A stretch of 35,216 bases of DNA, from the NCBI RefSeq assembly GCF_004104075.1, contig NZ_QOVK01000034.1, forward strand, positions 1-35,216, in the 5' to 3' direction. The translations under genes and the position numbers were made by a program. A model generated the notes under the pieces. That model worked only from the letters and a program-made list of their open reading frames with translations. It did no database searches and was not told where the DNA came from. Positions within the stretch are counted from its first letter, which is position 1. Each line of letters opens with the position of its first letter. Positions 1 to 11,752 of this stretch are shown here, piece after piece. Origin of the DNA: Leeuwenhoekiella polynyae. GTDB lineage: Bacteria; Bacteroidota; Bacteroidia; Flavobacteriales; Flavobacteriaceae.

Positions 1-295
1 GTTTTTCCAAAATATTATCATTTCCATCCGTGTAGATTATCTCAGCTTCGTAGCCCGTAAAATCCTGTTTGTCCTCGGACAATCTCTTGAAGTCGATAGT
101 AATAAATTCGCTTCGGTTCATTAGGCTTTTTGCGATTATAGAAGTGTCCGTAATGAGCCAAAAACATTCGGCAGCTTCCGCCAAATATTTCAGTCCGTTT
201 GTGTAACGGGTTCTTAATAATGGGATTTGAAATATGGTTTCTGAACCGTGAAAATGTTGCAATCCCTCTTTGATTTCGTTAACTTGTGTTTTCAT
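1..295 (-). CDS. DUF6876-like protein, 3' end cut by window edge
   Basis: This open frame starts at the ATG whose complement is at 293-295 and runs without a stop to the left edge, giving 98 visible codons. The protein begins MKTQVNEIKEGLQHFHGSE and contains TRYTNGLKYLAEAAECFWLI at about residues 29-48. That pattern (aromatic, T/N-G-x-K-Y-L-A-E, then W-L-I) resembles the DUF6876 family common in Bacteroidetes conjugative elements. The biochemical role is unknown. It lies downstream of ssb on the same strand, separated from it by a terminator hairpin. The family call is from memory of the motif; the coding call is firmer. Confidence 0.6.
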   Translation of the reverse strand, partial: MKTQVNEIKEGLQHFHGSETIFQIPLLRTRYTNGLKYLAEAAECFWLITDTSIIAKSLMNRSEFITIDFKRLSEDKQDFTGYEAEIIYTDGNDNILEK

Positions 296-326
296 TGTTA
301 TCTAATTTTAATTAATGGATAATGAA

Positions 327-362
327 AAAGAGGGCGCAACTTTAGACGGAAACGCCCTCTTT
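327..362 (-). terminator. Rho-independent terminator after ssb
   Basis: A perfect 10-base inverted repeat (AAAGAGGGCG at 327-336 with CGCCCTCTTT at 353-362) has a 16-base loop. Read on the minus strand it follows the ssb stop within about 10 bases and is followed by a short T run. It separates ssb from the DUF6876-like gene. Confidence 0.7.
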
Positions 363-371
363 ATTTTTAAA

Positions 372-728
372 TTAATCGGCTGAATTATTGCCGTTCTTAG
401 TTCCCAACAAAAGGATTTCATTGGCTTCCACTTCGGTAACATATCTTTTGATACCGTCCTTGTCCTCGTAGCTTCGGGATTTCAGTTTTCCCGTTACCCC
501 GATTTCTTTGCCCTTTCCGGCATATTTCTCGATGATTTCGGCAGTTTTGCCCCAGGCTACTATCGTGTGCCATTCGGTATTTTGGATTTTTTCGCCCTCG
601 CTGTTTTTGTAATACTCATTTGTGGCGAGTGAAAGACGGGCTACCTTTTTACCGCTTTCAAGGTTCGTGATTTGTGGCTCTTGGCCAACGTTTCCGATTA
701 ACTGTACGTGATTTTTTAAAGTACTCAT
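372..728 (-). CDS. ssb: Single-stranded DNA-binding protein, short mobile-element form
   Basis: SSB coats single-stranded DNA during replication and conjugative transfer. The 118-aa product is a single OB-fold domain (about residues 5-108) with the usual opening HVQLIGNVGQEPQ, the core ATNEYYKNSEGEKIQNTEWH and the strand IGVTGKLKSRSYED. It ends KNGNNSAD. The flexible linker and acidic DDDIPF-type tip that recruits partner proteins in housekeeping SSBs are absent. Short SSBs of this kind are common on Bacteroidetes conjugative elements, which fits the DUF6876 and DUF932 neighbours. It is probably element-borne rather than the chromosomal copy. Confidence 0.9.
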   Translation of the reverse strand: MSTLKNHVQLIGNVGQEPQITNLESGKKVARLSLATNEYYKNSEGEKIQNTEWHTIVAWGKTAEIIEKYAGKGKEIGVTGKLKSRSYEDKDGIKRYVTEVEANEILLLGTKNGNNSAD

Positions 729-744
729 AATAAAAGAATTAAGA

Positions 745-954
745 TTAATTAAGGCTACCCGAACCCTTCGGATAGTTTGCGTTTATGTTTTTTTGAAGTG
801 ATTTACTTATTATATCCAGAGCGTTTTCCTTTTTTGTTTTTTTTAGTCCCGCTTCCTTTTTGATGTTTTTGTAAGATTTCATAAGTTTCGATTTTGATTT
901 ACTTCCCATAGAGCCGTCCGCTGTTACCTTTTTTTGTTGCTGATACATTTTCAA
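745..954 (-). CDS. Small lysine-rich hypothetical protein
   Basis: A 69-aa very basic protein (runs such as GSKSKSKLMKSYKNIKKEAG) lies 16 bases upstream of ssb on the same strand, so co-transcription is likely. It has no membrane segment or recognised domain. The second codon pair (MKMYQQQ) allows a start two residues later. Its position in front of ssb and the Lys/Ser composition suggest a small nucleic-acid-associated protein of the element, but this is inference and it could be a chance frame. Confidence 0.45.
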   Translation of the reverse strand: MKMYQQQKKVTADGSMGSKSKSKLMKSYKNIKKEAGLKKTKKENALDIISKSLQKNINANYPKGSGSLN

Positions 955-1140
955 TATTTGGAATTAATAAGGAGTTATAAAAGGGAGGCACGACCGGTTA
1001 TGCACTCCGTTTAACTTCCAAATGTTGGTATTTTGCTTACAAAAAAGGGTAGGGACAGCGGCGGTGCGGGAGTAGTTCTAAATGCCTTTTGTGAAGTACA
1101 AAAACATAGGAAGCGGGACTAAATGATTAAATGGAATTCC

Positions 1141-1316
1141 TATGAAAAGCGGACTCCGTTACCTATTTCACCTTGGAATGGAGTGCGCTTCCCAGCAGGG
1201 CGGGAAGGGCAAGCGGAATGGAAAGCAGAAATCGGGGATGGTGTCCAAGACCTTAGTAGGAAAGCTCTTTGCCCGGAATGTAGCTTTTCGCGAAATGCAG
1301 CGGCAATGTGCTGACC
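1141..1316 (+). repeat. GGAATG repeat family, divergent copy 1
   Basis: This copy shares ordered blocks with the full copy that follows: AAAGCGGACT, TTGGAATGGAGTGCG (GGGAATGGAGCGTT in the full copy), CGGAATGGAAA, AAATCGGGG, GTGTCCAAGACCTT, GCCCGGAATGTAGC and TTTTCGCGAAATGCAG. Between the blocks it differs by substitutions and small insertions. It abuts the next copy head to tail. Confidence 0.65.
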
Positions 1317-1320
1317 GGGT

Positions 1321-1528
1321 TATGAAAACGGATTATCCTTTGAGTAGGATTAAAAGCGGACTTGACTTCAAAGGTGTAGATGGGAATGGAGCGTTCCTGC
1401 GTATTTCAGCAGGATTAGCGCAATGGAAATCGGAAGCTTTGGGGTCGTGTCCAAGACCTTTGGAATGAAGCGCTTTTCCCGGAATGAAGCTTTTTCAGCG
1501 GAATGTAGGGGAATGGGCTGAGTGGGAT
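1321..1528 (+). repeat. GGAATG repeat family, full copy 2
   Basis: This 208-base unit runs from TATGAAAACGGATTATCC to GGGCTGAGTGGGAT. By eye it is almost identical to 3890-4098. Within it are two short hairpins, ATCCT/AGGAT (about 1334-1350) and CCTGC/GCAGG (about 1396-1413), and several GGAATG or CGGAATG words. No conserved reading frame survives comparison with the other copies, so it is called non-coding. Confidence 0.85.
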
Positions 1529-1715
1529 AAAAACTATTATTTGTAATTCAACCATTAATTTTTCAGCATAAAATAAGGGGCGATAATAAGTTATATGACT
1601 TTTGTCTTTTGTCGGAATCCGGACTTATAAGTTTGTATATTGTAGGGATATAAATGAGTTGGTGGCTATGTAAACAATAAGCTAAAATGGCTCCAAAACT
1701 TTAAATTTTAAGGAA

Positions 1716-2711
1716 ATGGATAAAAAAACAATTTTAAATTTTTCTTTTTTGTTCCTTCTCTTGTTTAATGGGTGTAAGGCACAAAATCAAAGCAATTCAC
1801 TTCAATTAATTGCAACAGTTCCCTTGTCCGAAGTAAGAGGGCGAATTGACCATTTAAGTTATAACAACGGGCAACAAATACTTTATGTAGCTGCATTGGG
1901 CAACAATACCATTGAAGTGGTTGATTTAAAAAGCAAAAAAATCATCCATACTATAGAGAATTTAAACGAACCCCAAGGTGTCGTTTACCTTCCTGAAAGC
2001 AACTCCATTTTTGTTGCAAATGGCGGTAACGGGGTTTGCGAGGTTTTCAATGCAACCACTTTTGATAAAAAGACTTCAATAAAACTACCGGATGATGCCG
2101 ATAATGTTCGTTACGATCCTACAGATAAAAAAATTTATGTGGGTTATGGCAACGGCGGCATTGCCATAATTGATGCCACTACCTTTAATCTTATTGCCAA
2201 AATACAACTTTCAGGACATCCGGAATCTTTTCAAATAGACGAAGCTGCAAAAAAAATGTATGTAAATGTTCCCGGTAAAAAGCTTGTTGAGATTATCGAT
2301 TTAAATAAAAATAGGGTGGTTGATAAATGGAAAGTGACAAAAGCAAAGTCAAATTTCCCAATGAGCCTAGATGCAGTGCACCATCGTTTATTTATAGGAT
2401 GTTGGCACGCCCCAATGCTCTTAATATTGGACACACAAACGGGAAATAAAATTTCTTCTTTGGATATTGACAGGGATGTGGATGATATTTTTTACAGCCC
2501 CCAAAACGAACAGTTATATTTGAGCTGTGGCGCTGGTTATATCGATGTATTTAATCAAATTAATGCCGACACCTATACAACCGAAGGAAAAATTTCGACT
2601 GGTTCGGGTGCGAGGACATCCCTTTTTATTCCAGAACTAAACCAATTAATGGTTGCATCTCCTTCGGATTTTAATAGTGAAGCTTCAATATTGATTTATA
2701 TGGTGAAATAA
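1716..2711 (+). CDS. YncE-like beta-propeller lipoprotein
   Basis: The 331-aa product starts with a lipoprotein signal peptide: a hydrophobic stretch at residues 9-17 and the lipobox LFNGC with Cys at about residue 20. The rest repeats the YVTN/NHL-type blade pattern (YVAALGNNTIEVVDLKSKK, IFVANGGNGVCEVFNA, IYVGYGNGGIAIIDATT, MYVNVPGKKLVEIIDLNK), consistent with a seven-blade propeller as in YncE. Such proteins are exported binding or scaffold proteins; no catalytic residues are seen. It lies between two near-identical direct repeats together with the convergent DUF1259 lipoprotein, so the two look like an inserted cargo pair. Substrate unknown. Confidence 0.8.
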   Translation: MDKKTILNFSFLFLLLFNGCKAQNQSNSLQLIATVPLSEVRGRIDHLSYNNGQQILYVAALGNNTIEVVDLKSKKIIHTIENLNEPQGVVYLPESNSIFVANGGNGVCEVFNATTFDKKTSIKLPDDADNVRYDPTDKKIYVGYGNGGIAIIDATTFNLIAKIQLSGHPESFQIDEAAKKMYVNVPGKKLVEIIDLNKNRVVDKWKVTKAKSNFPMSLDAVHHRLFIGCWHAPMLLILDTQTGNKISSLDIDRDVDDIFYSPQNEQLYLSCGAGYIDVFNQINADTYTTEGKISTGSGARTSLFIPELNQLMVASPSDFNSEASILIYMVK

Positions 2712-2802
2712 AAATAACACACCATCAATAAAACAACAAAAAGTTTAAATGTTTGATCGAACTTTGGCGGTAATTTTTAACGGTCATTTTGGGTTTTCTA
2801 AA

Positions 2803-3753
2803 TTATTGAATTGAGGAAGTTTGTTCTAATGCAGCCTTAAATCCTTCTGCAAGTTCTTCCGGGTTTCCCTTGGCCCAAAAATGCATATAAAACAATCGGG
2901 GTTCCTCAAAAAGCATATGATTATGTAGTGCTGCAACTTCAATATTGTTTTTCACCAATTCTGTAATGACCGCATTCACTTCGTCGGCTCTCATTACAAA
3001 GTCGCCTGTTATAATAGCCTCATTTTTATTGATGGCCTGAAAGCCAATTGCGGTTGCAATGCCAAAAGTTGAGGGCATTGTTTCGCCATTCATAGTAATT
3101 GACCCTTTTCTGGGAAAACCAAATTTCAATAAATTTCCACTTTCTTTGCCATTCGAACCCAAGATTTTCTTTACCGGAGCCCAATCCATTTCTTTTTTCT
3201 CACTTTCACTTTTGGTTTCGGTCAATGGTGTAGCGGTAAGCGCATAAGCACCTTTCATAATTTTAGATAATTCCAGAGCGTCCCCGTTCCCCGCAATGTG
3301 CATATAAATCAGTCGGGGCTGTTCACGTAACAAATGATTATGAATAGCGGTTATTACAATGCCGTTTTCCTTCAAATAAGGTAGAACCCTAGGGATTTCG
3401 GTGTCCAGCATTACCATATCCCCCATAATTTGTGTTTTGTTCCCCATCGGGCGGTATGCTATCCAAGAAGTGTATGCCAAACCGGCCTCCACAGGCGCTC
3501 CATCAATTTTTAGGTGAATATCAGTACGGGGAAAGGTCACTTTGTAAAATTCCTTATTGTCCGCTAGTTTCTTGTTCCAGAAACTGTCTATTTCCTCAAC
3601 CCTAAATGAATTTTGTTGGACTAAATCCGTTGAATCCTGAGAAACGGATTTTTCCAGATTTGATGTGTTCTTATCTTCTTTAGGTTTTTCATTGCGATTA
3701 TTACAGGCAGTTAATAATCCAAAAAGACTTAATAAAATCAGTATTTTTTTCAT
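2803..3753 (-). CDS. DUF1259 (LppY/LpqO-type) lipoprotein, duplicated domain
   Basis: The 316-aa protein has a lipoprotein signal (lipobox LLTAC, Cys 17), a charged linker to about residue 45, then two homologous halves. Each half carries HNH followed by a conserved E-x-P-R-L-x-Y-M-H segment: HNH 138-140 with EQPRLIYMH 144-152, and HNH 277-279 with EEPRLFYMH 283-291. This matches DUF1259, a family annotated LppY/LpqO whose activity is not established. The histidine clusters would suit a metal site (inference). It converges with the beta-propeller lipoprotein gene, leaving 91 bases between the two stops. Confidence 0.8.
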   Translation of the reverse strand: MKKILILLSLFGLLTACNNRNEKPKEDKNTSNLEKSVSQDSTDLVQQNSFRVEEIDSFWNKKLADNKEFYKVTFPRTDIHLKIDGAPVEAGLAYTSWIAYRPMGNKTQIMGDMVMLDTEIPRVLPYLKENGIVITAIHNHLLREQPRLIYMHIAGNGDALELSKIMKGAYALTATPLTETKSESEKKEMDWAPVKKILGSNGKESGNLLKFGFPRKGSITMNGETMPSTFGIATAIGFQAINKNEAIITGDFVMRADEVNAVITELVKNNIEVAALHNHMLFEEPRLFYMHFWAKGNPEELAEGFKAALEQTSSIQ

Positions 3754-4181
3754 CTTAAGTATTATTTTTATTTAGACTTACTTTTTGTAAAGTTAAGAAA
3801 AGCTATGAGTGAATTGAATTAAAAATTGAAGTAAGTTAAAAAAGAGTTTTACCAATTTATTTATGCACACACATTGACCCGACCTGAAATATGAAAATGG
3901 ATTATCCTCTTGAAGTAGGATTTAAAGCGGACTTAACTTTTAAGGTGTAGATGGGAATGGAGCGTTCCTGCGTATTTCAGCAGGATTAGCGCAATGGGAA
4001 TCGGAAGCTTTGGAGTCGAGTCCAAGACCTTTGGTAATGAAGCGCTTTTCCCGGAATGGAGCTTTTCGCGGAATGCAGGGGAATGGGCTGAGTGGGATTG
4101 CAAAGCCAACTTTCCAATTAAATCCTTTTGCTGAAAATAGGAAAAATCCAGTTTGAGGTACTGGATGAACCTTTAATAGCA
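3754..4181. other. Gene-free stretch holding the third repeat copy
   Basis: Apart from the repeat at 3890-4098, the stretch holds the upstream region of the DUF1259 gene (about 3754-3880, AT-rich). The minus-strand frame at 3940-4182 lies mostly within repeat sequence and has no counterpart in the other copies, so it is not called as a gene. Confidence 0.6.
3890..4098 (+). repeat. GGAATG repeat family, full copy 3
   Basis: This 209-base unit runs from TATGAAAATGGATTATCC to GGGCTGAGTGGGAT in the same orientation as 1321-1528. The stretch GATGGGAATGGAGCGTTCCT through CAGCAGGATTAGCGCAATGG is identical in both. The short hairpins are preserved. With copy 2 it brackets about 2.36 kb containing the two lipoprotein genes. 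Confidence 0.85.
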
Positions 4182-5018
4182 TTAAGCCATTTCATAAACG
4201 GCATCGAACAGTTTTTTGTCCAAGCGTTCTTGTTGTGAAAAGCTTTTCTTCAATGTATTGTGAAGCATTTGATTAAAAGCATTATAGCCTATCCATAAAT
4301 TGGGAACTTCATTGAGCAGCAACGCTTCATTATCAAGAATTTCAAGGACTTCCCGGGATTTCTTTGAAGGATCATTGTTCCTATCACTACATTCATACCG
4401 GAACAATCTCGTGCTTTCCAGAATTTCTTTTACAAATTCCTTGGTGTCGATAATTTCAAATTCCCTCATTCTGTCGAACTTCTTGGTAATGCTATAAAAT
4501 TCATTATCCACGAACTTATCGAACAAATTGTTCAACCTTGGCATTATCAAGTCGGTATTGTTCTTACTGTGCTTGATGGAAAACTCGATTTCCGCCTGTG
4601 AAACGTGAAGGCCATTGGAGCATACTTGCCGGTAAAAGCCAAAATGCCCCGATGTTTTTTCGCTACCATCATAGGAATTCTTAAACCGCAGCATCGGCAG
4701 TATCAGGTCTTTTTCGTTCTTTACCGAAAACTGGCTTTTATCGTCGATGATAAAGTCGGTAATGAAAGACCTATCATTCCTGTTGATCGTCCGTTTCTGA
4801 TAATTCAGTCCGGCATCAGTCAACATTTCCTCTGCTTTCTTAAAGAATAGTTCGTTCGGTACGTGGCCGTAGCTGTTCGATACCACGTTGACAATTTTGC
4901 CATTTGAAATTATGGTATTTTCAAGTCCCCTTCGGGATTCCATCTGGGTCAGGCTTTTCAAGGATTTCATTTCTGATGGAACGAAGATTTCATCCTGCTG
5001 TAAATTTGATAAATACAT
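4182..5018 (-). CDS. DUF932 domain protein of mobile elements
   Basis: The 278-aa protein carries the DUF932 hallmark FGFYRQVCSNGLHVS at about residues 127-141, preceded by a beta-rich N-terminal half (ILPMLRFKNSYDGSEK) and followed by a helical half with LWIGYNAFNQMLHNT. DUF932 proteins (phage/plasmid-like, TIGR03299-related) occur on plasmids, phages and conjugative elements, often near antirestriction genes. Their biochemical role is not established. The gene stands alone between two copies of the GGAATG repeat. Confidence 0.85.
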   Translation of the reverse strand: MYLSNLQQDEIFVPSEMKSLKSLTQMESRRGLENTIISNGKIVNVVSNSYGHVPNELFFKKAEEMLTDAGLNYQKRTINRNDRSFITDFIIDDKSQFSVKNEKDLILPMLRFKNSYDGSEKTSGHFGFYRQVCSNGLHVSQAEIEFSIKHSKNNTDLIMPRLNNLFDKFVDNEFYSITKKFDRMREFEIIDTKEFVKEILESTRLFRYECSDRNNDPSKKSREVLEILDNEALLLNEVPNLWIGYNAFNQMLHNTLKKSFSQQERLDKKLFDAVYEMA

Positions 5019-5386
5019 AACATTTGATTTTAGTTAAACAATTAATATTTAAGCTAGAACCAAACGGAAGATAAAATCTCAGCTCAAAAGGAAACGGAAT
5101 AAAAGGAGTGAGAAACGAGCCCGATTATGCCGTAGTCTTTTGATGGGAGTATTTTACGAGTTTACCTTTGCGCATATATTGATTGAATACTCTCTCTTTT
5201 TAACCGGAATTGACATCAAAGATGTAAATGGGAATGGAGTTTGGCTGCTTCCCTACTTTTCTCGGGAATAGGCGGGCAAGTGGAATGGGAATCGGAAGCG
5301 TTTGGTCGTACTACTCCCATTATAAAAACTATAAGATTTTTGATGGAGATAACTGAAATAATAATTATCGTTAAAACGACTATTAA
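5019..5386. other. Gene-free stretch holding the fourth repeat copy
   Basis: No open frame of note is present. The first 180 bases, upstream of the DUF932 gene, are a plausible promoter region. The shortened GGAATG repeat lies at 5204-5309. The rest is AT-rich sequence leading to the stop of the metalloprotease gene. Confidence 0.55.
5204..5309 (+). repeat. GGAATG repeat family, shortened copy 4
   Basis: The order of blocks follows the full copies: CCGGAATTGACATCAAAG, TGTAAATGGGAATGGAG, GGCTGCTTCCC, GGAATGGGAATCGGAAGCG and TTTGGTCGT. It stops where the full copies continue with GTCCAAGACCTT, so it is truncated at its 3' end and diverged in the middle. Confidence 0.65.
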
Positions 5387-6193
5387 TTAAGCTTCCCATA
5401 TGACACTTATAAGTGTTTTATATTTTTTCGTAGGAATACAATATTCATTAAACTCAATATCCTCTTCCCAGTCATTTAATTTAAACCACGTAGACTTGTC
5501 AATAGATTGAGTTTTTTCAGATCCCTCATAGACAAACGCATAATCTTCATCTATGTATTCTTTAGCAACTGAAAATTCTGGTGGCGGAATCTTGGTGATA
5601 TCGTTTGTATAGCATTTAAAATCTTCTGTTTTTCGCCAATATCGAACAATACCATCCGTGATGAAGACAACAAAAAAAGGTGTTATTTCCAGCGTTAACA
5701 TTCTGAAGATTACTGAGGTTAAACTGGTATTGAAATGCTCACTCACTTCTTTTATTAAATCTGGGCTAAATGGCTTTCTTAAAATAAAGTTTCTAAAAAC
5801 TTGTTCAGGCATTAAAAGCTCGCCTGCAAAATCGTTTGCTTCTATTTCTTGAATACCTCTTTTGTGAACTTCTTCTAATCTATTCCAGCTCAAAGTTTTC
5901 TCATCATCCAAATGAAATTCCAATCTATCGTGAAGAAAGAAGTGCCCTAATTCGTGTGCTGCAACAAATCGTTTGCGTTGGGGGGTAGAAATATTTACAT
6001 CTACCTTAATTATTGTTTTTGATCTACCTCTAATAATTACACCATCTGAGCCATTTAATTGTTCTTCTATATAGATAATATCAAACCCAGCCAATAAATT
6101 CTTTATAGGAAGTTCGGTGACCTCATCAAACCCGATTAGTTCTAATATTTCTTTTGCTTTATTACTTCCCTTCAGACTTTTCCTCATCTTCAA
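5387..6193 (-). CDS. ImmA/IrrE family metallopeptidase
   Basis: The 268-aa protein has the gluzincin motif HELGH at residues 80-84 and the third-ligand segment EIEANDFAGELLMP with Glu 118, the signature of ImmA/IrrE (Pfam Peptidase_M78). Family members cleave a repressor or sensor to release transcription, as in ICEBs1 ImmA, Deinococcus IrrE and CapP of CBASS. The C-terminal 100 residues (YWRKTEDFKCY onward) resemble a substrate or signal-sensing extension. Its start overlaps the end of the preceding small gene by 32 bases, and that gene overlaps the sigma-like gene, so all three are one transcription unit. The likely substrate is one of those two partners (inference). Confidence 0.85.
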   Translation of the reverse strand: MKMRKSLKGSNKAKEILELIGFDEVTELPIKNLLAGFDIIYIEEQLNGSDGVIIRGRSKTIIKVDVNISTPQRKRFVAAHELGHFFLHDRLEFHLDDEKTLSWNRLEEVHKRGIQEIEANDFAGELLMPEQVFRNFILRKPFSPDLIKEVSEHFNTSLTSVIFRMLTLEITPFFVVFITDGIVRYWRKTEDFKCYTNDITKIPPPEFSVAKEYIDEDYAFVYEGSEKTQSIDKSTWFKLNDWEEDIEFNEYCIPTKKYKTLISVIWEA

Positions 6194-6575
6194 GCATTTC
6201 TAATATTTCTATCAGATTTTGGTCTTTAATTATATCTTTGATTTGTTCTTCTGACAGTTTATCTAACCTATTGAATTGTGTTTGTAAATTATTTGTTCTC
6301 ATCAATTCATTCATATAGGCAATTGGTTTATCCAAACCTTTGGTTAAAGCATCTTTAAAATAATTTGATGCTTTTTCAAGCATACGGTCATACTTTACAG
6401 TAGTACTTTTTGACCTTAATTTAAATGTCAATTGCTTGATAAATTTATCTTGTGATAACGATTGTTCATCCAAATTGACACCTTCTGCCTCGAGCTGCTT
6501 CCTAACTAAATCATCAGGAATCGCCTTGTCAAAATTGTTAAGACTTTCCTTTATTGTTTTTTTAAGCTTGTCCAC
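6162..6575 (-). CDS. Small acidic helical protein between sigma-like and ImmA genes
   Basis: The 137-aa product is charged and predicted helical throughout (FDKAIPDDLVRKQLEAEG, YDRMLEKASNYFKDALTKG, IEILEMLEDEEKSEGK). It has no signal peptide, membrane segment, HTH or cysteine pair. I do not recognise a family. It overlaps the upstream sigma-like gene by 25 bases and the downstream metallopeptidase by 32 bases. That position suggests a regulator bridging the two, for example an anti-sigma-like inhibitor that the protease destroys. This is inference only. Confidence 0.7.
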   Translation of the reverse strand: MDKLKKTIKESLNNFDKAIPDDLVRKQLEAEGVNLDEQSLSQDKFIKQLTFKLRSKSTTVKYDRMLEKASNYFKDALTKGLDKPIAYMNELMRTNNLQTQFNRLDKLSEEQIKDIIKDQNLIEILEMLEDEEKSEGK

Positions 6576-7153
6576 TTCTCGTTGAATTTAATTTTTTTTC
6601 TTCTTAATCTTCTTGATATTGTATAGATTACGTCGATTGGCTTATCCAGCAAATCCGCTATGTCTTTTGGTTTATCGATTCCATTTGCCAAACATTCGAA
6701 CATTTCAATTTCATCCTTGTCGGCTCCTTGGTCTTTCAACTGTTTTAGCCATTGTTGCAGCCTAACTTCATCATCAATTTTTTCTAAACTGAAATCTTTT
6801 GCGGGTTCTTCATCAAAATAATTGGGAATATTGATTATATATTCTGATTGTGGATTTTCATCAGAATTATCACTTGCTCTTTTCAACTGTTTGAAAAAGC
6901 TATCTAAATCACTTTGTAAAGCCCAAAACAGGAATTTTTCAAAAGAGCAGTTATCTGGTTTCCATTTTCTTGTTCCATCGCAGACTTTTGTTAATGTTTG
7001 CTGACAGAAGTCCTGAAACTGAAAACCTTTTTTGTTTCTGTCACTCTTGTCATAAAAGCGGTCACGAGTATAAAGTTCCATCCTATTCAAGAGGTTTTTT
7101 ACGTCAATTGCGTTAAGCTGTTCTATTATTTCTTCAGTTGTCGCTATCCTCAT
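6551..7153 (-). CDS. Sigma-70-like transcription factor (regions 2 and 4)
   Basis: The 200-aa protein has an ECF-like layout. A region-2-like helix pair spans about residues 46-92 (FQDFCQQTLTKVCDG, then W-K-P-D-N-C-S-F-E-K-F-L-F-W-A-L and the basic FKQLKR). An acidic linker follows. A region-4-like HTH spans about 147-186 (EIEMFECLANGIDKPKDIA, then IYTISRRLRRK). Such proteins recruit RNA polymerase to a few promoters. It is the first gene of the three-gene minus operon and diverges from the Pycsar-like cluster with only 42 bases between start codons, so it may control that cluster. The remote similarity leaves room for a non-sigma HTH protein. Confidence 0.65.
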   Translation of the reverse strand: MRIATTEEIIEQLNAIDVKNLLNRMELYTRDRFYDKSDRNKKGFQFQDFCQQTLTKVCDGTRKWKPDNCSFEKFLFWALQSDLDSFFKQLKRASDNSDENPQSEYIINIPNYFDEEPAKDFSLEKIDDEVRLQQWLKQLKDQGADKDEIEMFECLANGIDKPKDIADLLDKPIDVIYTISRRLRRKKIKFNEKWTSLKKQ

Positions 7154-7195
7154 TCATTAAATATATGCTTCAATTTCGTAAAAATTTACCAAACG

Positions 7196-7273
7196 ATGGC
7201 AAAAAAAATTAAAACACAAGCATATAAGAGTGTAGAACTTTTAGAACAATACAAATGGCAACAAATGGAATAA
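7196..7273 (+). CDS. Possible 25-aa leader peptide
   Basis: An ATG at 7196 opens 25 codons (MAKKIKTQAYKSVELLEQYK and five more) and overlaps the next micro-gene by 19 bases. It is the first start codon after the divergent promoter region. It may be a leader that couples translation to the 58-aa gene, or just the untranslated leader of the operon. Nothing else supports it. Confidence 0.25.
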   Translation: MAKKIKTQAYKSVELLEQYKWQQME

Positions 7274-7431
7274 GTGGTGATAATCGCAGAAACGGTGCGA
7301 TAAAAAGCAGAACACAAGTCAAAAACCCTAAAACTGGTCTTTATGTTAAAAGAAATTCCGATTCCGGAAGATTTATGGATGTAAAGACCAGCGGTGGAAA
7401 ATTTAAAGGTGTTACCGATAAAAGTAAGTAA
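7255..7431 (+). CDS. Conserved micro-protein (KNPKTG / KRNSDSGRF type)
   Basis: The 58-aa product reads MATNGISGDNRRNGAIKSRT and continues with QVKNPKTGLYVKRNSDSGRF, then a KTSGGKFKGV ending. I recognise this pattern (R-x-G-A-x-x-x-R-[ST]-Q, N-P-x-T-G, K-R-x-x-x-[ST]-G-[RK]-F, F-K-G-V) from small uncharacterised proteins that recur in variable regions of many bacteria. An in-frame stop at 7225 makes the ATG at 7255 the only plausible start. Function is unknown; basic composition and abundant Gly suggest a disordered or nucleic-acid-binding peptide. It is the first solid gene of the plus-strand defence cluster. Confidence 0.6.
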   Translation: MATNGISGDNRRNGAIKSRTQVKNPKTGLYVKRNSDSGRFMDVKTSGGKFKGVTDKSK

Positions 7432-7483
7432 CACTTCAGCGAAACCCAATTGCTGCGAATTTGGGATAACTAAAATTTTGATT

Positions 7484-7636
7484 ATGAATTATTCATTTCA
7501 GAATGACAAGTTGAGTCTTTGCGAAAAGGACACTTGTCTACATTTAAATGGTAATAGCGCGAGAGTTATTTCAACAATTTTTACTGTGGTAACATTTGTG
7601 GCAGCTATAACAGCTATCACAAAGGCTATCAAGTAA
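7484..7636 (+). CDS. Micro-protein with one C-terminal membrane helix
   Basis: From the ATG at 7484 the product is 50 aa: a polar N-terminal part with two cysteines (SLCEKDTCLHLNG), then one hydrophobic helix of about 20 residues (RVISTIFTVVTFVAAITAIT) and a short KAIK tail. The longer frame opening at 7394 overlaps the 58-aa gene and adds a non-conserved-looking leader, so the internal start is preferred. Membrane micro-proteins in defence clusters can be effector partners, inhibitors or toxins; which applies here cannot be read from sequence. Confidence 0.5.
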   Translation: MNYSFQNDKLSLCEKDTCLHLNGNSARVISTIFTVVTFVAAITAITKAIK

Positions 7637-7638
7637 TC

Positions 7639-7670
7639 AACTAGGCTGGCTCTTTGGAATCAGCCTAGTT
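7639..7670 (+). promoter_or_regulatory. Stem-loop between micro-genes and effector gene
   Basis: A perfect 10-base inverted repeat, AACTAGGCTG (7639-7648) and CAGCCTAGTT (7661-7670), has a 12-base loop. It begins three bases after the stop of the 50-aa gene and ends 15 bases before the effector start. No T run follows, so it is more likely an mRNA processing, stability or attenuation element than a full terminator. Confidence 0.6.
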
Positions 7671-7685
7671 AATAAATTGAACTCT

Positions 7686-8180
7686 ATGGAAAAAGAAAGA
7701 TTGGAATACACAGTAAACCGCTTAGACCATTATTACGATAGCGTCAATAACAAAACGGCGGTATATATCGCCATAAATACATTTATAACAGGTGGGGCGA
7801 TTACGCTCTTAACTCAAATACAAAAACTTTTATACAAAGAAAACTGGTTGTTATTGTCTTTGGCTTCTATTATAGTTCTTGGTGTTATTAGCTTAATACT
7901 GTTGGCCTTAGCTAGTATGCCCTATTTTTCGCCAAAATCCGATATAGAATCTTTGTATTATTTCGCTAGCATAGGGCAAAAAAGGCCTGAAGAATTCTTT
8001 GAACTTTCAAAAAATCAAAGTAAAAAAGATGATTTAAATGATTTAAGAAATCAAGTCTTTATCCTTTCAAAAGGTTTGAAATCAAAATTCAAAAAGCTCA
8101 AATGGGCTTGTGGCTTATTAATCATACAATTTGTGCTATTAGCACCCTTAACCTACATATTAATTAAAATAACCTCATAA
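7686..8180 (+). CDS. pycTM: Pycsar-type transmembrane effector (PycTM-like)
   Basis: The protein is 164 aa from the second ATG (three codons inside the longest frame). The N-terminal motif RLDHYYDSVNNKTAVYIAIN runs straight into membrane helix 1 and matches the start of the PycTM effector family as I remember it (helix, Y-Y-x-S-x-N-x-K, then a long hydrophobic helix). Helix 2 (WLLLSLASIIVLGVISLILL) and helix 3 (WACGLLIIQFVLLAPLTYIL) flank a cytosolic loop of about 60 residues. In Pycsar the effector senses cCMP or cUMP and damages the inner membrane, aborting phage growth. Its stop lies one base before the cyclase start, so the two are co-translated. Confidence 0.75.
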   Translation: MEKERLEYTVNRLDHYYDSVNNKTAVYIAINTFITGGAITLLTQIQKLLYKENWLLLSLASIIVLGVISLILLALASMPYFSPKSDIESLYYFASIGQKRPEEFFELSKNQSKKDDLNDLRNQVFILSKGLKSKFKKLKWACGLLIIQFVLLAPLTYILIKITS

Positions 8181-8181
8181 A

Positions 8182-9168
8182 ATGAACTTATTCGAAAATT
8201 ACAAAAACGTAATAAAGAAAGCGGTCGAGAACGACCCAACAAAATCAAACAAAATTTATGGCCTTAGTGAACCGCTTCTCGAAAGCAACCGTGATTTTCT
8301 TAAATCGCTAAGAAATGAACTTCCTGGTAGAGAATTATCGCCCGAAATGAAATTATTTGCGAAAGGAATGGGTGTACAAGACACTTTTGACTACCAACCA
8401 TTGGGGAGCCATCCAGATTTTGCACGCTTAAAAGGCACAGACTTGGTTGAAGAGCATTGGATAATATCAGGATTCATAGATGTGAAGAAAAGTACAAGGC
8501 TTTTTAATAATTTTACAAAAGGTACGGTACGGTTAATAACAGAAAGTATCATCCGGGCTTCAATATTTGCGGTAAATCTTTGTGGCGGTTACGTACATCG
8601 TATACAGGGTGACGGCTTAATGGTATACTTCGGTGGAAAAAACATCGAAAAACTGAAAGCAGTTGAGGATGCTTTAAAATCCTTTTCAATGATATCTTAC
8701 TTCGTTAAAAATGACCTAAAAGACTTTTTTGAGGATAATGGTGTTCAGGATATTCACACAAGAGCCGGACTGGATCTGGGTCATTCAAAACAGGTAGATT
8801 GGTTTTATTCAGGGATCGGTGAATCAGGTGAAGTTACCACTTGTAGTCTGCATACAAGCCTTGCTCCAAAAATGCAAAGCAATGCTAAAAACAGCGGAAT
8901 AGTAGTGGGTCATAATGTAACGACCCAGCTAAGGAAAGACAAATATTTTGAGCAGCGAAGTAAAGAAATCCACGATTATGAGGATGGAAGAAGATACCAT
9001 CAATACAATTTTAATTGGGAGCGATATTTAGTAGACAATAACCTAGCAGTCCAAAACGATACGGGTGTTTTGGTGTTAACTATAAGTGCATTACCAGACC
9101 CAAAAAAGAATAGCCGTGATTTATACCCTATTGCCTCTAAAAGCAAACCTTATTTCAATTATGATTAA
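8182..9168 (+). CDS. pycC: Pycsar-type class III nucleotide cyclase (PycC-like)
   Basis: The 328-aa soluble protein has a helical N-terminal part (1-90), a class III cyclase domain (about 91-275) and a C-terminal tail of about 50 residues. The two metal-binding aspartates are visible: Asp 100 in SGFIDVKKSTRLF and Asp 144 in HRIQGDGLMVYFGG. TRAGLDLGHSK (193-203) is the usual R-x-G-x-x-x-G strand. Where ordinary adenylate cyclases read N-x-A-x-R, this protein reads SLHTSLAPKMQ (222-232), a divergence expected of the PycC group. Such enzymes make cCMP or cUMP upon phage infection. Placement directly after a PycTM-like gene strongly supports this over a housekeeping cAMP role. Base specificity cannot be told. 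Confidence 0.8.
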   Translation: MNLFENYKNVIKKAVENDPTKSNKIYGLSEPLLESNRDFLKSLRNELPGRELSPEMKLFAKGMGVQDTFDYQPLGSHPDFARLKGTDLVEEHWIISGFIDVKKSTRLFNNFTKGTVRLITESIIRASIFAVNLCGGYVHRIQGDGLMVYFGGKNIEKLKAVEDALKSFSMISYFVKNDLKDFFEDNGVQDIHTRAGLDLGHSKQVDWFYSGIGESGEVTTCSLHTSLAPKMQSNAKNSGIVVGHNVTTQLRKDKYFEQRSKEIHDYEDGRRYHQYNFNWERYLVDNNLAVQNDTGVLVLTISALPDPKKNSRDLYPIASKSKPYFNYD

Positions 9169-9835
9169 AAAAAGGCTCAATCAAGATATTGAAAGCTTTC
9201 TAAGCAGATATTTTTCCTTCGAAAAAGTCCAAAGTCCAAAATTTGGATATTTAGCTCTTGAAGGTAAAATAAGTATTGTAGACGATAGAAATAAACTTTG
9301 GGGACATTTCGAAATTCTCGTTCTAATAAATAAAAGTGAATACCCACACACAACACCTGTTGTAATTGAGAAAACCAATATCATAAATAGAGACTGGAAT
9401 TTTCATATTTCAAAGGATGGTGAATGCTGTTTGGACATCCCACATAAACTGTTGAAACTAAAAAAGAGGGGTATTTTATTTGAAGAGTTTTATAGGGAAG
9501 TTATCTATCCATTTTTTGCTAATTATCATTTCAAGAAATCAACAGGTTACTATGCCAACGGTGAGTACGACCATCATTTTGCTGGAATAGTCCAATATTA
9601 CCGCGAAGAATATGGGCTTAAAGATTTCAAAAACATCATTGCTATTTTGGAAACAGCCTTATACCGTATAAAATATCAACCAAATAAAGAATGTCCTTTG
9701 TGTGGTGGTCATAAATATAAAAAATGTTGCCGAAAAAAGGTTTACAAATTAAAGGGATACGGGCAACCACAGTTAATGATTGATCTGGAATTATTTAAAC
9801 AACAACACTTCAGAAGAACCAAAGGTTTAGAGTGA
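9161..9835 (+). CDS. E2-like protein with C-terminal SEC-C zinc motif
   Basis: The preferred ATG at 9161 overlaps the cyclase stop by 8 bases and gives 224 aa; an upstream frame start at 9086 would only read through the cyclase gene. Residues 1-125 look like a prokaryotic E2 (ubiquitin-conjugating) fold: a beta meander (GYLALEGKISI, GHFEILVLINK), the proline strand YPHTTPVVIE (61-70) and WNFHISKDGECCLDIP (79-94), where Cys 89 or 90 sits at the catalytic position. Residues 178-190, CPLCGGHKYKKCC, are a SEC-C zinc knuckle with one extra residue in the first cysteine pair. E2 proteins of CBASS conjugate or prime the cyclase; the same partner role for the neighbouring PycC is inference. Confidence 0.75.
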   Translation: MIKKRLNQDIESFLSRYFSFEKVQSPKFGYLALEGKISIVDDRNKLWGHFEILVLINKSEYPHTTPVVIEKTNIINRDWNFHISKDGECCLDIPHKLLKLKKRGILFEEFYREVIYPFFANYHFKKSTGYYANGEYDHHFAGIVQYYREEYGLKDFKNIIAILETALYRIKYQPNKECPLCGGHKYKKCCRKKVYKLKGYGQPQLMIDLELFKQQHFRRTKGLE

Positions 9836-9912
9836 AATGATATAAAAATAAAATATAATAGCAAATGATGCCAATATATATCAAAGAATATTCTTTAAAG
9901 GAAAACATCAAA

Positions 9913-9933
9913 ATGTTGTACCTATGTTGTACC
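9913..9933. repeat. Tandem 11-base repeat at island edge
   Basis: ATGTTGTACC occurs twice, at 9913-9922 and 9924-9933, in an 11-base period. It lies between the last island gene and the tRNA terminator. Short direct repeats near a tRNA 3' end can be arm-type sites for a tyrosine recombinase; that role is inferred from position only. Confidence 0.45.
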
Positions 9934-9940
9934 CATTGCC

Positions 9941-9972
9941 AAAAAAAAGCCCACACATTGCTGTGAGGGCTT
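9941..9972 (-). terminator. Terminator of tRNA-fMet
   Basis: An 11-pair stem with one mismatch (9947-9957 with 9962-9972, loop TTGC) is followed on the minus strand by eight Ts (complement of 9941-9948). It lies 12 bases after the tRNA 3' end. Confidence 0.85.
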
Positions 9973-9983
9973 GATTTTGCTAG

Positions 9984-10056
<73 letters not shown>

Positions 10057-10067
10057 ATATTGGACGG

Positions 10068-10098
10068 CAAATATACAACACTTCTTAAGTTCTCACAA
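10068..10098 (-). promoter_or_regulatory. Bacteroidetes-type promoter of tRNA-fMet
   Basis: Read on the minus strand, TTGT (complement of 10095-10098) is followed by 19 bases and TATATTTG (complement of 10068-10075), a full match to the -7 consensus TAnnTTTG. It ends 11 bases upstream of the tRNA 5' end. Confidence 0.7.
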
Positions 10099-10183
10099 GA
10101 CCTTTTGAAATAAATTTTTATAAAATCCTAATATTATCATTTCGCTAACACTAACGAGCCTGAGTATTAGATATCTTAGAGCA

Positions 10184-11752
10184 ATGAAGAAATTTCTAAT
10201 TGGGCTTTTTATCTTTTTTGTACTACTGGGAGCCGCAGCACTTTACCTCAATACCTACCTTAAAAATCAACTTCAGGAGATTATTCAAAATGATTTACCA
10301 GAGTCACTTTCGCTTGATTATGAAGATATCACGATAGACAGCTGGGGAGGCAATGCGAGTATGGCTCATGCCACCGTTCGTATCAAAGCAAACGACTCGA
10401 CTCCCCGAAGTGAAGTTAAAAATGCCAGTGTACAGCTTAAAGGACTTGATCATTGGGATTATTTTAAAAACAAAAATATTCACTTTAAAAACATCCGCAT
10501 TCACGCCGACAGTCTTACACACTATAAACACTCCAATAACCAAAAAGAACAAAATTCAAAAAAGAAAGATAGCACGACAGAAAATCCTATACAGGCTCAA
10601 AATTTAGACAGGCATTTTCAGATAGATAAATTTGATCTGGTAACAGACTACATTCAAATAATAAATCCTAAAACGGATTCGGTTACTTTAAAAACAGCGC
10701 ACTTTAACCTGAAACTTGAGAATATTACTCCTACCATAACTGCAGCGATCACACGCCCATTTGATTATGAAGAAATTTTTATGAGTTACGATTCGTTGTA
10801 TTATCAGACCAATCGTTTTGATGTACTAACTGTAAGTCACGTGGAATGGGATGGCACTGATCTCGTTATGAATGACCTGAGACTCAAAACTCAATACTCC
10901 CGAAGCCAACTCAGTAATATGATCAAGAAAGAACGGGATCATATAGATTTTTCTATTAAAAATATAAAATTTCACAACCTCAGATATGGTGAAGAATCTG
11001 GCGAATTTTACCTCAATACACCTTTACTAGAATTAGAAAAACCTTATCTAAACATATACAGAGATAAGCGAATTGCAGATGATCTGACTAAAAAGCCTTT
11101 GTATTCTAAAATGCTGCGTGATCTTAATTTTGAGATGATGATAGATACTATCAAAATAAAGAATGGCGGAATTGTATATCACGAAAAAGTAAACAGCAAC
11201 ACAGCAGCTGGGATGCTTGATTTCAGCAATCTTAATGCCTCACTATATAATGTTGGCAATACGTATAATTTAGGAGAAAAAAAGACCAGCATTGCAATTA
11301 AGGCCGTATTTATGAAAAGTAGCCCTATGAGCTTGGATTGGAATTTTGACATCAATGACCCTCAAGATAAATTTTATGTAAAAGGAAGCCTATCTAAACT
11401 TCCTGTAGCTAATCTTGAATCATTTACATCTCCCAATTTAGGCGTAGAAATGAGCGGGGATTTAGAGCATACCTACTTTACCATTTACGGGGATAATTAC
11501 AGTTCGCATATAGACATGCAAATGACTTATGATGAGTTTAAAGTCAACATCATGAATCAAGAGAAAAAGAAGAAAAAATGGTTTGCCTCTACCATTGCCA
11601 ATATATTTATCGCTAAAACCAGTAAAAACGAAGATGGCGGGTTTAAAGAAGGAGCTGGTGAAGTAAACAGAAATCAAACCAAATCGTTTTTCAACTACCT
11701 GTGGATTAATCTAAAAGAAGGAATGCTTAAAACCGTTACAGCTTTAGATTAG
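10184..11752 (+). CDS. AsmA/DUF748-like envelope protein
   Basis: The 522-aa protein has one N-terminal membrane anchor (FLIGLFIFFVLLGAAALYL, residues 4-22) and a long periplasmic beta-rich region with repeats of the form I-x-I-K-N-x-x-x-x-Y (IDFSIKNIKFHNLRYGEESG, IDTIKIKNGGIVYHEK). This architecture is typical of AsmA/DUF748 relatives, thought to bridge the envelope or act in lipid or outer-membrane homeostasis. A lysine-rich segment (QEKKKKKWFASTIANIFIAK) lies near residue 460. It is the first chromosomal gene beyond the tRNA. Its stop overlaps the stop of the convergent SpoIIAA-like gene by 4 bases. Precise function unknown. Confidence 0.65.
   Translation: MKKFLIGLFIFFVLLGAAALYLNTYLKNQLQEIIQNDLPESLSLDYEDITIDSWGGNASMAHATVRIKANDSTPRSEVKNASVQLKGLDHWDYFKNKNIHFKNIRIHADSLTHYKHSNNQKEQNSKKKDSTTENPIQAQNLDRHFQIDKFDLVTDYIQIINPKTDSVTLKTAHFNLKLENITPTITAAITRPFDYEEIFMSYDSLYYQTNRFDVLTVSHVEWDGTDLVMNDLRLKTQYSRSQLSNMIKKERDHIDFSIKNIKFHNLRYGEESGEFYLNTPLLELEKPYLNIYRDKRIADDLTKKPLYSKMLRDLNFEMMIDTIKIKNGGIVYHEKVNSNTAAGMLDFSNLNASLYNVGNTYNLGEKKTSIAIKAVFMKSSPMSLDWNFDINDPQDKFYVKGSLSKLPVANLESFTSPNLGVEMSGDLEHTYFTIYGDNYSSHIDMQMTYDEFKVNIMNQEKKKKKWFASTIANIFIAKTSKNEDGGFKEGAGEVNRNQTKSFFNYLWINLKEGMLKTVTALD

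Follow-up and report, generated by a model that had tools for sequence, protein, structure and literature searches.

The closest described relatives of the locus presented in this work are found in two groups of nucleotide cyclase systems, the pyrimidine cyclase system for antiphage resistance (Pycsar) and the cyclic-oligonucleotide-based antiphage signalling system (CBASS). E2 reportedly processes the C terminus of cGAS through a thioester and ligates it onward, such poly-cGASylation being said to activate the enzyme (a result attributed to Yan et al., 2024), and the E2 of Serratia is said to cleave the tail of its cyclase internally. In the available part of PMC11153139, conjugation of cyclase to cyclase is proposed as the activating step of E2-only CBASS (type II short). 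The full Cap2 systems require active E1 and E2 domains as well as the C-terminal glycine of cGAS, according to the accessible portion of PMC10097602, and Pycsar is described as a cyclase and a receptor protein in the accessible portion of PMC11224242. Here we analyse a stretch of 35,216 nucleotides (nt), further called the window, which is contig C34 of the 4.8-Mb genome of Leeuwenhoekiella polynyae. Its plus strand carries at 7686-9835 an operon of three genes, PycTM, then PycC, then an E2 protein with a SEC-C motif. Two features appear to be new: this PycC lineage is accompanied almost constantly by such an E2, and in two unrelated cyclase families the class of the E2 and the cyclase are connected by a short motif in the tail. 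No literature tying an E2 to Pycsar was found in a limited search of partly available texts; the model which best fits the PycC-linked E2s, PDLC00833, is already included in PADLOC-DB 2.0, which indicates that its curators had such proteins.

The operon consists of the following features, given in window coordinates:

7686..8180, + strand: PycTM-like membrane effector, 164 amino acids (aa); Pfam PF18967, E = 2.9e-9; PADLOC PDLC00700 '2TM effector', 4.4e-64
8182..9168, + strand: PycC pyrimidine cyclase, clade-E-like (cytidylate cyclase), 328 aa; PADLOC PDLC00767, 3e-153; PDB 8jsf, 8e-62
9121..9165, + strand: C-terminal tail of PycC, residues 314-328 (LYPIASKSKPYFNYD), K-P-Y codons at 9145-9153; a conserved, flexible island which pairs with E2 class
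9161..9835, + strand: E2 (UBC-like) protein with C-terminal SEC-C motif, 224 aa; PADLOC PDLC00833, 1.8e-94; profile match to PDB E2s; AlphaFold model
9404..9430, + strand: E2 active-site segment His82-Cys90, HISKDGECC; His82 codon 9404-9406, Cys90 codon 9428-9430
9683..9733, + strand: SEC-C zinc motif (NKECPLCGGHKYKKCCR); conserved Cys178/Cys189, SecA/YchJ profile match

An earlier note, made from the letters alone, had read the first two genes as the known Pycsar pair and the third as overlapping the cyclase stop by 8 nt. Both readings hold: Pfam, PADLOC and PDB matches identify PycTM (7686-8180) as the linked cyclic-pyrimidine effector and PycC as a member of the pyrimidine cyclase family, and the E2 ATG at 9161 precedes the end of the PycC stop codon (9166-9168) by this distance. 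The window PycC is shared at 100% identity with Leeuwenhoekiella marinoflava DSM 3653, and its nearest solved structure, 8jsf, is entitled 'cytidylate cyclase'. In the clade E enzyme EaPycC, F100, R142 and Q144 are named for cyclic CMP (cCMP) production and D102 and D146 as catalytic, in the available part of PMC11224242. Their counterparts in the window PycC are F98, R140, Q142, D100 and D144, none of which varies among the 9 members of our PycC alignment A1; the matching was read by eye from an ungapped part of the alignment, with an offset of one residue between chain and paper numbering. Since these residues are kept, cCMP is the likely product.

The same note had assigned the third protein an E2-like fold, a cysteine at the catalytic position (residues 89-90) and a SEC-C zinc motif. 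Pfam UQ_con reached only E = 0.059 on the window protein, under the family cut-off. The profile of the E2 domain matched 81 PDB sequences at E<=1 (best 0.0028), UBE2L3 and UBE2K among them, and the best 60 of these 81 are all E2s except C21orf6 (2dax); Cys90 aligns to the active-site cysteine of UBE2L3. The AlphaFold model has a pLDDT (predicted local distance difference test) of 93.1, and its 25 best Foldseek matches, although of weak E-value, are all E2 or ubiquitin E2 variant (UEV) entries by title. Thus the fold agrees with the proposal, while the cysteine needs narrowing to one residue: in 69 E2s (65 distinct, the window included) His82 and Cys90 are invariant, whereas position 89 is cysteine in 66. 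This set leaves out L031 (split open reading frame, ORF), L091 (contig end), L089 and L090 (small E2s). We equate the HISKDGECC segment with HPN...C of eukaryotic E2s. The SEC-C assignment is likewise sustained, as its profile aligns with the zinc motif of SecA/YchJ (1.5e-4 to 6.4e-4) and Cys178 and Cys189 are kept in 69/69.

In its E2-like fold, active-site-type Cys and His, and SEC-C motif the window protein resembles the SEC-C E2s of CBASS. It matches the CBASS SEC-C models PDLC00872, 00865, 00871 and 00859 at E = 4e-37 to 3e-21, and 7 of the 8 PADLOC models that match it also match the CBASS SEC-C E2s L018 and L101. PDLC00833 (labelled E1-E2) gives 230-313 bits on the three PycC-linked E2s scanned, and 89 and 159 bits on the two CBASS-linked ones. 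As in the SEC-C class of type II-short CBASS, where a related E2-SEC-C lies directly downstream of a cyclase with a P[YWF] tail, a stand-alone E2 adjoins the cyclase and the operon has no E1. However, the cyclase here is a class III-type PycC and not a CD-NTase (cGAS/DncV-like nucleotidyltransferase), and SMODS (PF18144) finds nothing in the own genome. The locus shares its PycC and PycTM homologues with described Pycsar, including the clade E structure 8jsf, and this lineage adds to them a regular third gene. From CBASS type II with Cap2 (E1-E2) and Cap3 it differs in being E1-less and in a PycC that ends in Asp, although in both the cyclase C terminus is the substrate of E2, for the window as a proposal. 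The suggestion of a Pycsar subtype with a stand-alone E2 is supported at the level of architecture, conjugation by this E2 being a proposal. The protein itself is kin of the CBASS SEC-C E2s and not of a new kind.

No E1-type gene is present in the three-gene operon, and library scans matched no ubiquitin-like family among its products. The own genome gave two ThiF-family hits, each located on a contig other than this one, and none for Prok-JAB. Near the PycC loci no E1 was matched by a weak test, a phmmer search with two ORFs of the own-genome ThiF locus only.

The recurrence of the E2 beside PycC, which the note had proposed to survey, was confirmed. Taking one genome per species we obtained 139 pattern matches and 104 relatives, of which the best 80 were kept; all are from Bacteroidota as far as record titles tell. 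A SEC-C E2 adjoins PycC in 70 of the 80 loci (in L031 it is split, and in L091 truncated where the contig ends). Three loci (L089, L090, L092) have a smaller E2 that lacks SEC-C, and seven (L094-L100) have no E2; a PycTM homologue lies upstream of PycC in 79 of the 80. In L031 the E2 gene is divided into two overlapping frames beside an intact PycC, and the same metagenome-assembled genome has a second PycC with an undivided E2 ORF (L035). The family scan of 397 genomes found a PycC match in 8, with 7 loci, the window included, ordered PycTM-PycC-E2, and the same three genes lie on a Chryseobacterium plasmid (L015). We looked for a fourth operon member in the ten largest gene clusters that follow the E2 and found none; only one of these clusters has a same-strand gene as its representative, in 4 loci. 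Scans with the window E2, alignment A1, a CBASS SEC-C E2 and a small E2 revealed no relatives on viral contigs; phage records gave two distant PycC matches. PDLC00872 matched in 230/295 genomes, but near full length (E<=4.8e-36) at only 8 places among the matches listed. L109 and L116 match it through the E2 half only, inside 387-aa ORFs; most other listed matches are short, lie at the SEC-C end of long ORFs and probably represent SecA.

The feature which connects the two partners is the C terminus of the cyclase. The typical ending of E2-linked PycCs is LxPIAxx[SN]KPYF followed by a few residues, in the window SKPYFNYD with Asp as the last one, so that the window protein bears the P[YWF] tail of a SEC-C E2 partner. 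Pro323, placed after a variable linker, is identical in 43/43 aligned PycCs, and the last 28 residues of the PycC model have a block pLDDT of 54-65. The chain of 8jsf ends in ..GYKPY plus 2 residues. We compared the last 16 residues of distinct proteins. Among PycCs linked to a SEC-C E2, [KR]P[YWF] was present in 63 of 68 tails and P[YWF] in 67; among CD-NTases linked to a SEC-C E2, in 15 and 16 of 16, respectively. Neither pattern occurred in any of 13 small-E2 CD-NTases, 18 CD-NTases without an E2 hit, 3 small-E2 PycCs or 8 AGS_C PycCs, and the background of [KR]P[YWF] in internal 16-mers is 0.3%. The SEC-C-E2 CD-NTases come from Bacteroidota and from plasmids of Vibrio, Roseivivax, Aliarcobacter, Cytobacillus, Ligilactobacillus and Enterococcus, and have endings such as KPYGY, KPWFKQ, KPWCRS, KPWKNI, KPWRN and SPWSR; near relatives are included among the 16 (L004/L005/L006 at 68-73%, L105/L106 at 80%). 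BLASTP of the window PycC against them gave a best E of 0.42, i.e. no detectable similarity. As the same tail thus occurs on unrelated PycCs and CD-NTases and is absent with other E2 status, it tracks the class of E2 and not the cyclase fold.

In the tail comparison the CD-NTases without E2 are 18 of 30 surveyed loci, four of them E1-like by eye; the other 12 include 9 duplicates counted elsewhere and L159, counted with SEC-C. L092 was counted as a small-E2 PycC. Excluded were L140 (= L168, a cyclase-small E2 fusion), L142 (unclear gene call) and L175 (IS30 gene in place of the cyclase).

A different ending accompanies the small E2s. In small-E2 CBASS (PDLC00862, 00858 and relatives) the E2 gene follows the cyclase directly and E2-like His and Cys are present (H92 and C100 are invariant in alignment A3), as in the window; unlike in the window, the E2 ORFs have about 145-200 aa without SEC-C and the cyclase tails are never P[YWF]. 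Instead, [FYH]G is found in 12 of 13 small-E2 CD-NTase tails, vs 4/18 without an E2 hit and 4/16 with a SEC-C E2. Judged from their chains alone, the solved CD-NTases 7ljo and 8hsb (SmCdnG) end in HRNYG and NTFYG, plus one residue. Within PycC, L089 has a small E2 and the tail DHRFHYE, resembling HRFHYGK of the small-E2 CD-NTase L165, while over its first 300 residues it is 49-55% identical to L084, L085, L087 and L091, all with a SEC-C E2 and with the tails GYKPY, GYKPY, GYKPS and DYRPY. It follows that in L089 E2 class and tail were switched together within PycC. Similarly, the L090 tail TPTKFYGYEQF resembles ATKFHGIDQG of the small-E2 CD-NTase L179.

The E2-less PycCs have another module. 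AGS_C was detected on 8 of 9 PycCs scanned for it (the E2-less L094-L100 and L014; the ninth is L092, with a small E2) and on 0/46 E2-linked PycCs scanned, which makes AGS_C and E2 alternatives in this PycC set. The AGS_C sensor domain was also seen on a CD-NTase (L131), being a second control module common to Pycsar and CBASS.

In a tree of 80 E2s, one branch (99/86) separates the 65 PycC-linked SEC-C E2s from the CBASS E2s. Midpoint rooting nests the former inside the latter, among which there are long end branches. The simplest history would be a single passage from CBASS into Pycsar, with small E2s entering separately; its direction depends on how the tree is rooted. Three changes of the control module suffice on a quick PycC tree built without tails, although long branches make some placements unsure.

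Taken together, the linkage of the genes, the E2-like fold with invariant Cys and His, the flexible conserved tail, the pairing of tail and E2 in two cyclase families and the E1-less operon lead us to favour, with moderate confidence, a three-gene Pycsar in which the E2, independently of E1, controls PycC by way of the C-terminal tail that PycC itself carries. The tail (LxPIAxxSKPYF...) would enter the E2 active site or an adjacent groove, and Cys90 would act on it without E1, most likely by attacking a peptide bond within the tail or close to it to form a PycC-E2 thioester. A lysine on a second PycC molecule or on a partner would then receive PycC; the cyclase would thereby be primed or clustered for cCMP synthesis upon infection, and PycTM would damage the membrane, which is expected to serve phage defence. 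Several observations weigh against this proposal. Terminal glycine is not conserved (only 12/78 SEC-C-linked PycCs end in G) and the last residue varies among F, G, K, D, E and others, so that an acyl donor would need internal cleavage, as is said of the Serratia E2, or the interaction would have to be non-covalent; a covalent step may be absent in the window system. Structural support consists of single-chain predictions, and the fold match is qualitative, with no Foldseek hit at E<=0.001 (best 0.015), probabilities of 0.30-0.99 and low target-normalised TM-scores of 0.29-0.50 in the top 25. Fisher p values for the pairing of [KR]P[YWF] with E2 class are 2e-11 within CD-NTases and 5e-10 within PycC, but these statistics ignore relatedness. 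Because the PycC-linked E2s are placed on a single branch, most PycC tail cases may stem from one event, and the independence of the pairing rests on the comparison with CD-NTases and on the small-E2 switches. The small-E2 code is a loose one: the stricter H-x-[FY]-x-G is met in 6/13 small-E2 CD-NTases (none in other classes) and in 0/3 small-E2 PycCs, where [FYH]G is seen only in L090. Finally, two plasmid PycCs from outside Bacteroidota, Acinetobacter L019 and Lactococcus L020 (2 of 32 plasmid records), have neither E2 class and no tail.

Some of these points would also fit a protein that binds the tail non-covalently, as an inhibitor, chaperone or phage sensor which releases the cyclase on infection, with the cysteine being structural or a relic. 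For the pairing of tail and E2 binding alone is enough, and both the lack of a conserved terminal glycine and the lack of an E1 gene in the operon (or nearby, by the weak phmmer test) speak for it. Nevertheless, we consider such non-covalent control rather doubtful, as Cys90 and His82 are invariant in all 69 sequences whereas the adjacent Cys89 varies. The enzyme of E2-only CBASS is also said to be catalytic, and the conjugation of cyclases proposed in the part of PMC11153139 available to us points the same way. If the E2 is an active enzyme, its target could be different, and it might act as a direct, Bil-like effector that attaches PycC itself or some other modifier to proteins of the phage or the host, with a housekeeping E1 supplied in trans. 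The two ThiF-family proteins on other contigs could provide such an E1, and Cap2 CBASS conjugates cGAS to E. coli and T4 proteins, as given in the accessible portion of PMC10097602. We regard this as improbable, since the three genes and the own genome lack a ubiquitin-like family match and a Prok-JAB hit, respectively, just one of the ten largest downstream clusters has a same-strand representative (in 4 loci), and the partner to which the motif in the tail points is PycC.

It could be argued as well that the motif is kept only because the translation-start region of E2 falls within its codons, the E2 itself being a coupled passenger. The PycC stop and E2 start indeed overlap, most commonly by 8, 1 or 23 nt (for starts picked by a script), which puts the tail codons shortly before the E2 start. 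However, the codons vary synonymously (AAA 37/AAG 14; CCT 27, CCA 13, CCC 9, CCG 2; TAT 37/TAC 14), which shows that selection acts on the protein, and the spacing between the P codon and the E2 ATG is not fixed (13, 17, 7, 14, 20, 10 nt and others). The same motif, moreover, ends CD-NTases of several phyla, and cyclases preceding small-E2 genes do not have it. A translation signal is hence very improbable, and was rejected on the variation of codons and spacing. Returning to E2 control through the cyclase tail, we think it fairly likely that the principle is general, i.e. that stand-alone E2s read short C-terminal codes regardless of the cyclase fold (P[YWF], usually KP[YWF], for the SEC-C E2; a looser aromatic-glycine code, e.g. 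HRFYG, for the small E2). PycCs and CD-NTases would use the same three modules (SEC-C E2 with tail, small E2 with tail, AGS_C), and E2 with tail would constitute a portable switch moved between CBASS and Pycsar. Should this code be true, ubiquitin-like control is not tied to cGAS-like enzymes, but is a swappable module recognised by few residues. For the Bacteroidota lineage akin to the clade E cyclase of the crystal structure, the nearly constant third gene may be the missing step of activation or priming.

Upstream of the operon and on the opposite strand the window has a divergent module of three genes:

6551..7153, - strand: diverged sigma-70/extracytoplasmic function (ECF)-like gene, first of the module; NCBIfam sigma70-ECF 4.3e-7, below cut-off
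6162..6575, - strand: 137-aa middle gene with no convincing family; homologue in 12/80 loci
5387..6193, - strand: IrrE/CapP-like metallopeptidase, last of the module; Peptidase_M78 1.1e-14, PADLOC capP 3.5e-57

By its position the 137-aa product would be an anti-sigma factor or adaptor. An IrrE homologue occurs in 34/80 PycC loci (one a 68-aa fragment), and the three-gene layout, with a middle gene of 102-149 aa, in 29/80, as judged by ORF order and IrrE homology; homology to the window sigma-like gene was found in only 10/80 and to the 137-aa gene in only 12/80. The first module gene of L036 matched no family. The same divergent module is present on the Chryseobacterium plasmid and on a Roseivivax plasmid (L177), where it neighbours an E2-type CBASS. 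In four other loci there is a shorter IrrE with a partner of 113-120 aa (helix-turn-helix in L083), as in CapH-CapP, and the divergent module may be a sigma/anti-sigma version of CapH-CapP control.

Among the small-E2 loci, L140/L168 have a CD-NTase and a small E2 apparently fused in one 492-aa ORF, and PADLOC PDLC00816 is a 542-aa cyclase model the end of which matches small E2s. On a Nostoc plasmid (L179), the CD-NTase of a small-E2 CBASS is closely preceded by genes of the ThiF family and of DUF6527; because of this ThiF gene the L179 system may not be E1-less. A SEC-C E2 beside an S-4TM effector was noticed on a Carnobacterium megaplasmid (L175), where an IS30 transposase gene occupies the expected cyclase position; read from its gene order, this is a broken E2-CBASS locus.

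As for the surroundings of the operon in the window, a tRNA-Met gene (9983-10056, - strand) lies right beside it and is a possible integration site; direct repeats of at least 20 nt involving this gene were not found within 1-10200. Between the divergent module and PycTM there is an 80-aa ORF (7394-7636, + strand) with no family match in library scans, and the Chryseobacterium plasmid has an annotated small gene in this place. Families of direct repeats (24-126 nt) are located left of the defence genes, at 1235-1528, 3909-4098 and 5279-5302; they are 65-100% identical to the reference copies, and many pairs lie about 2.57 kb apart.

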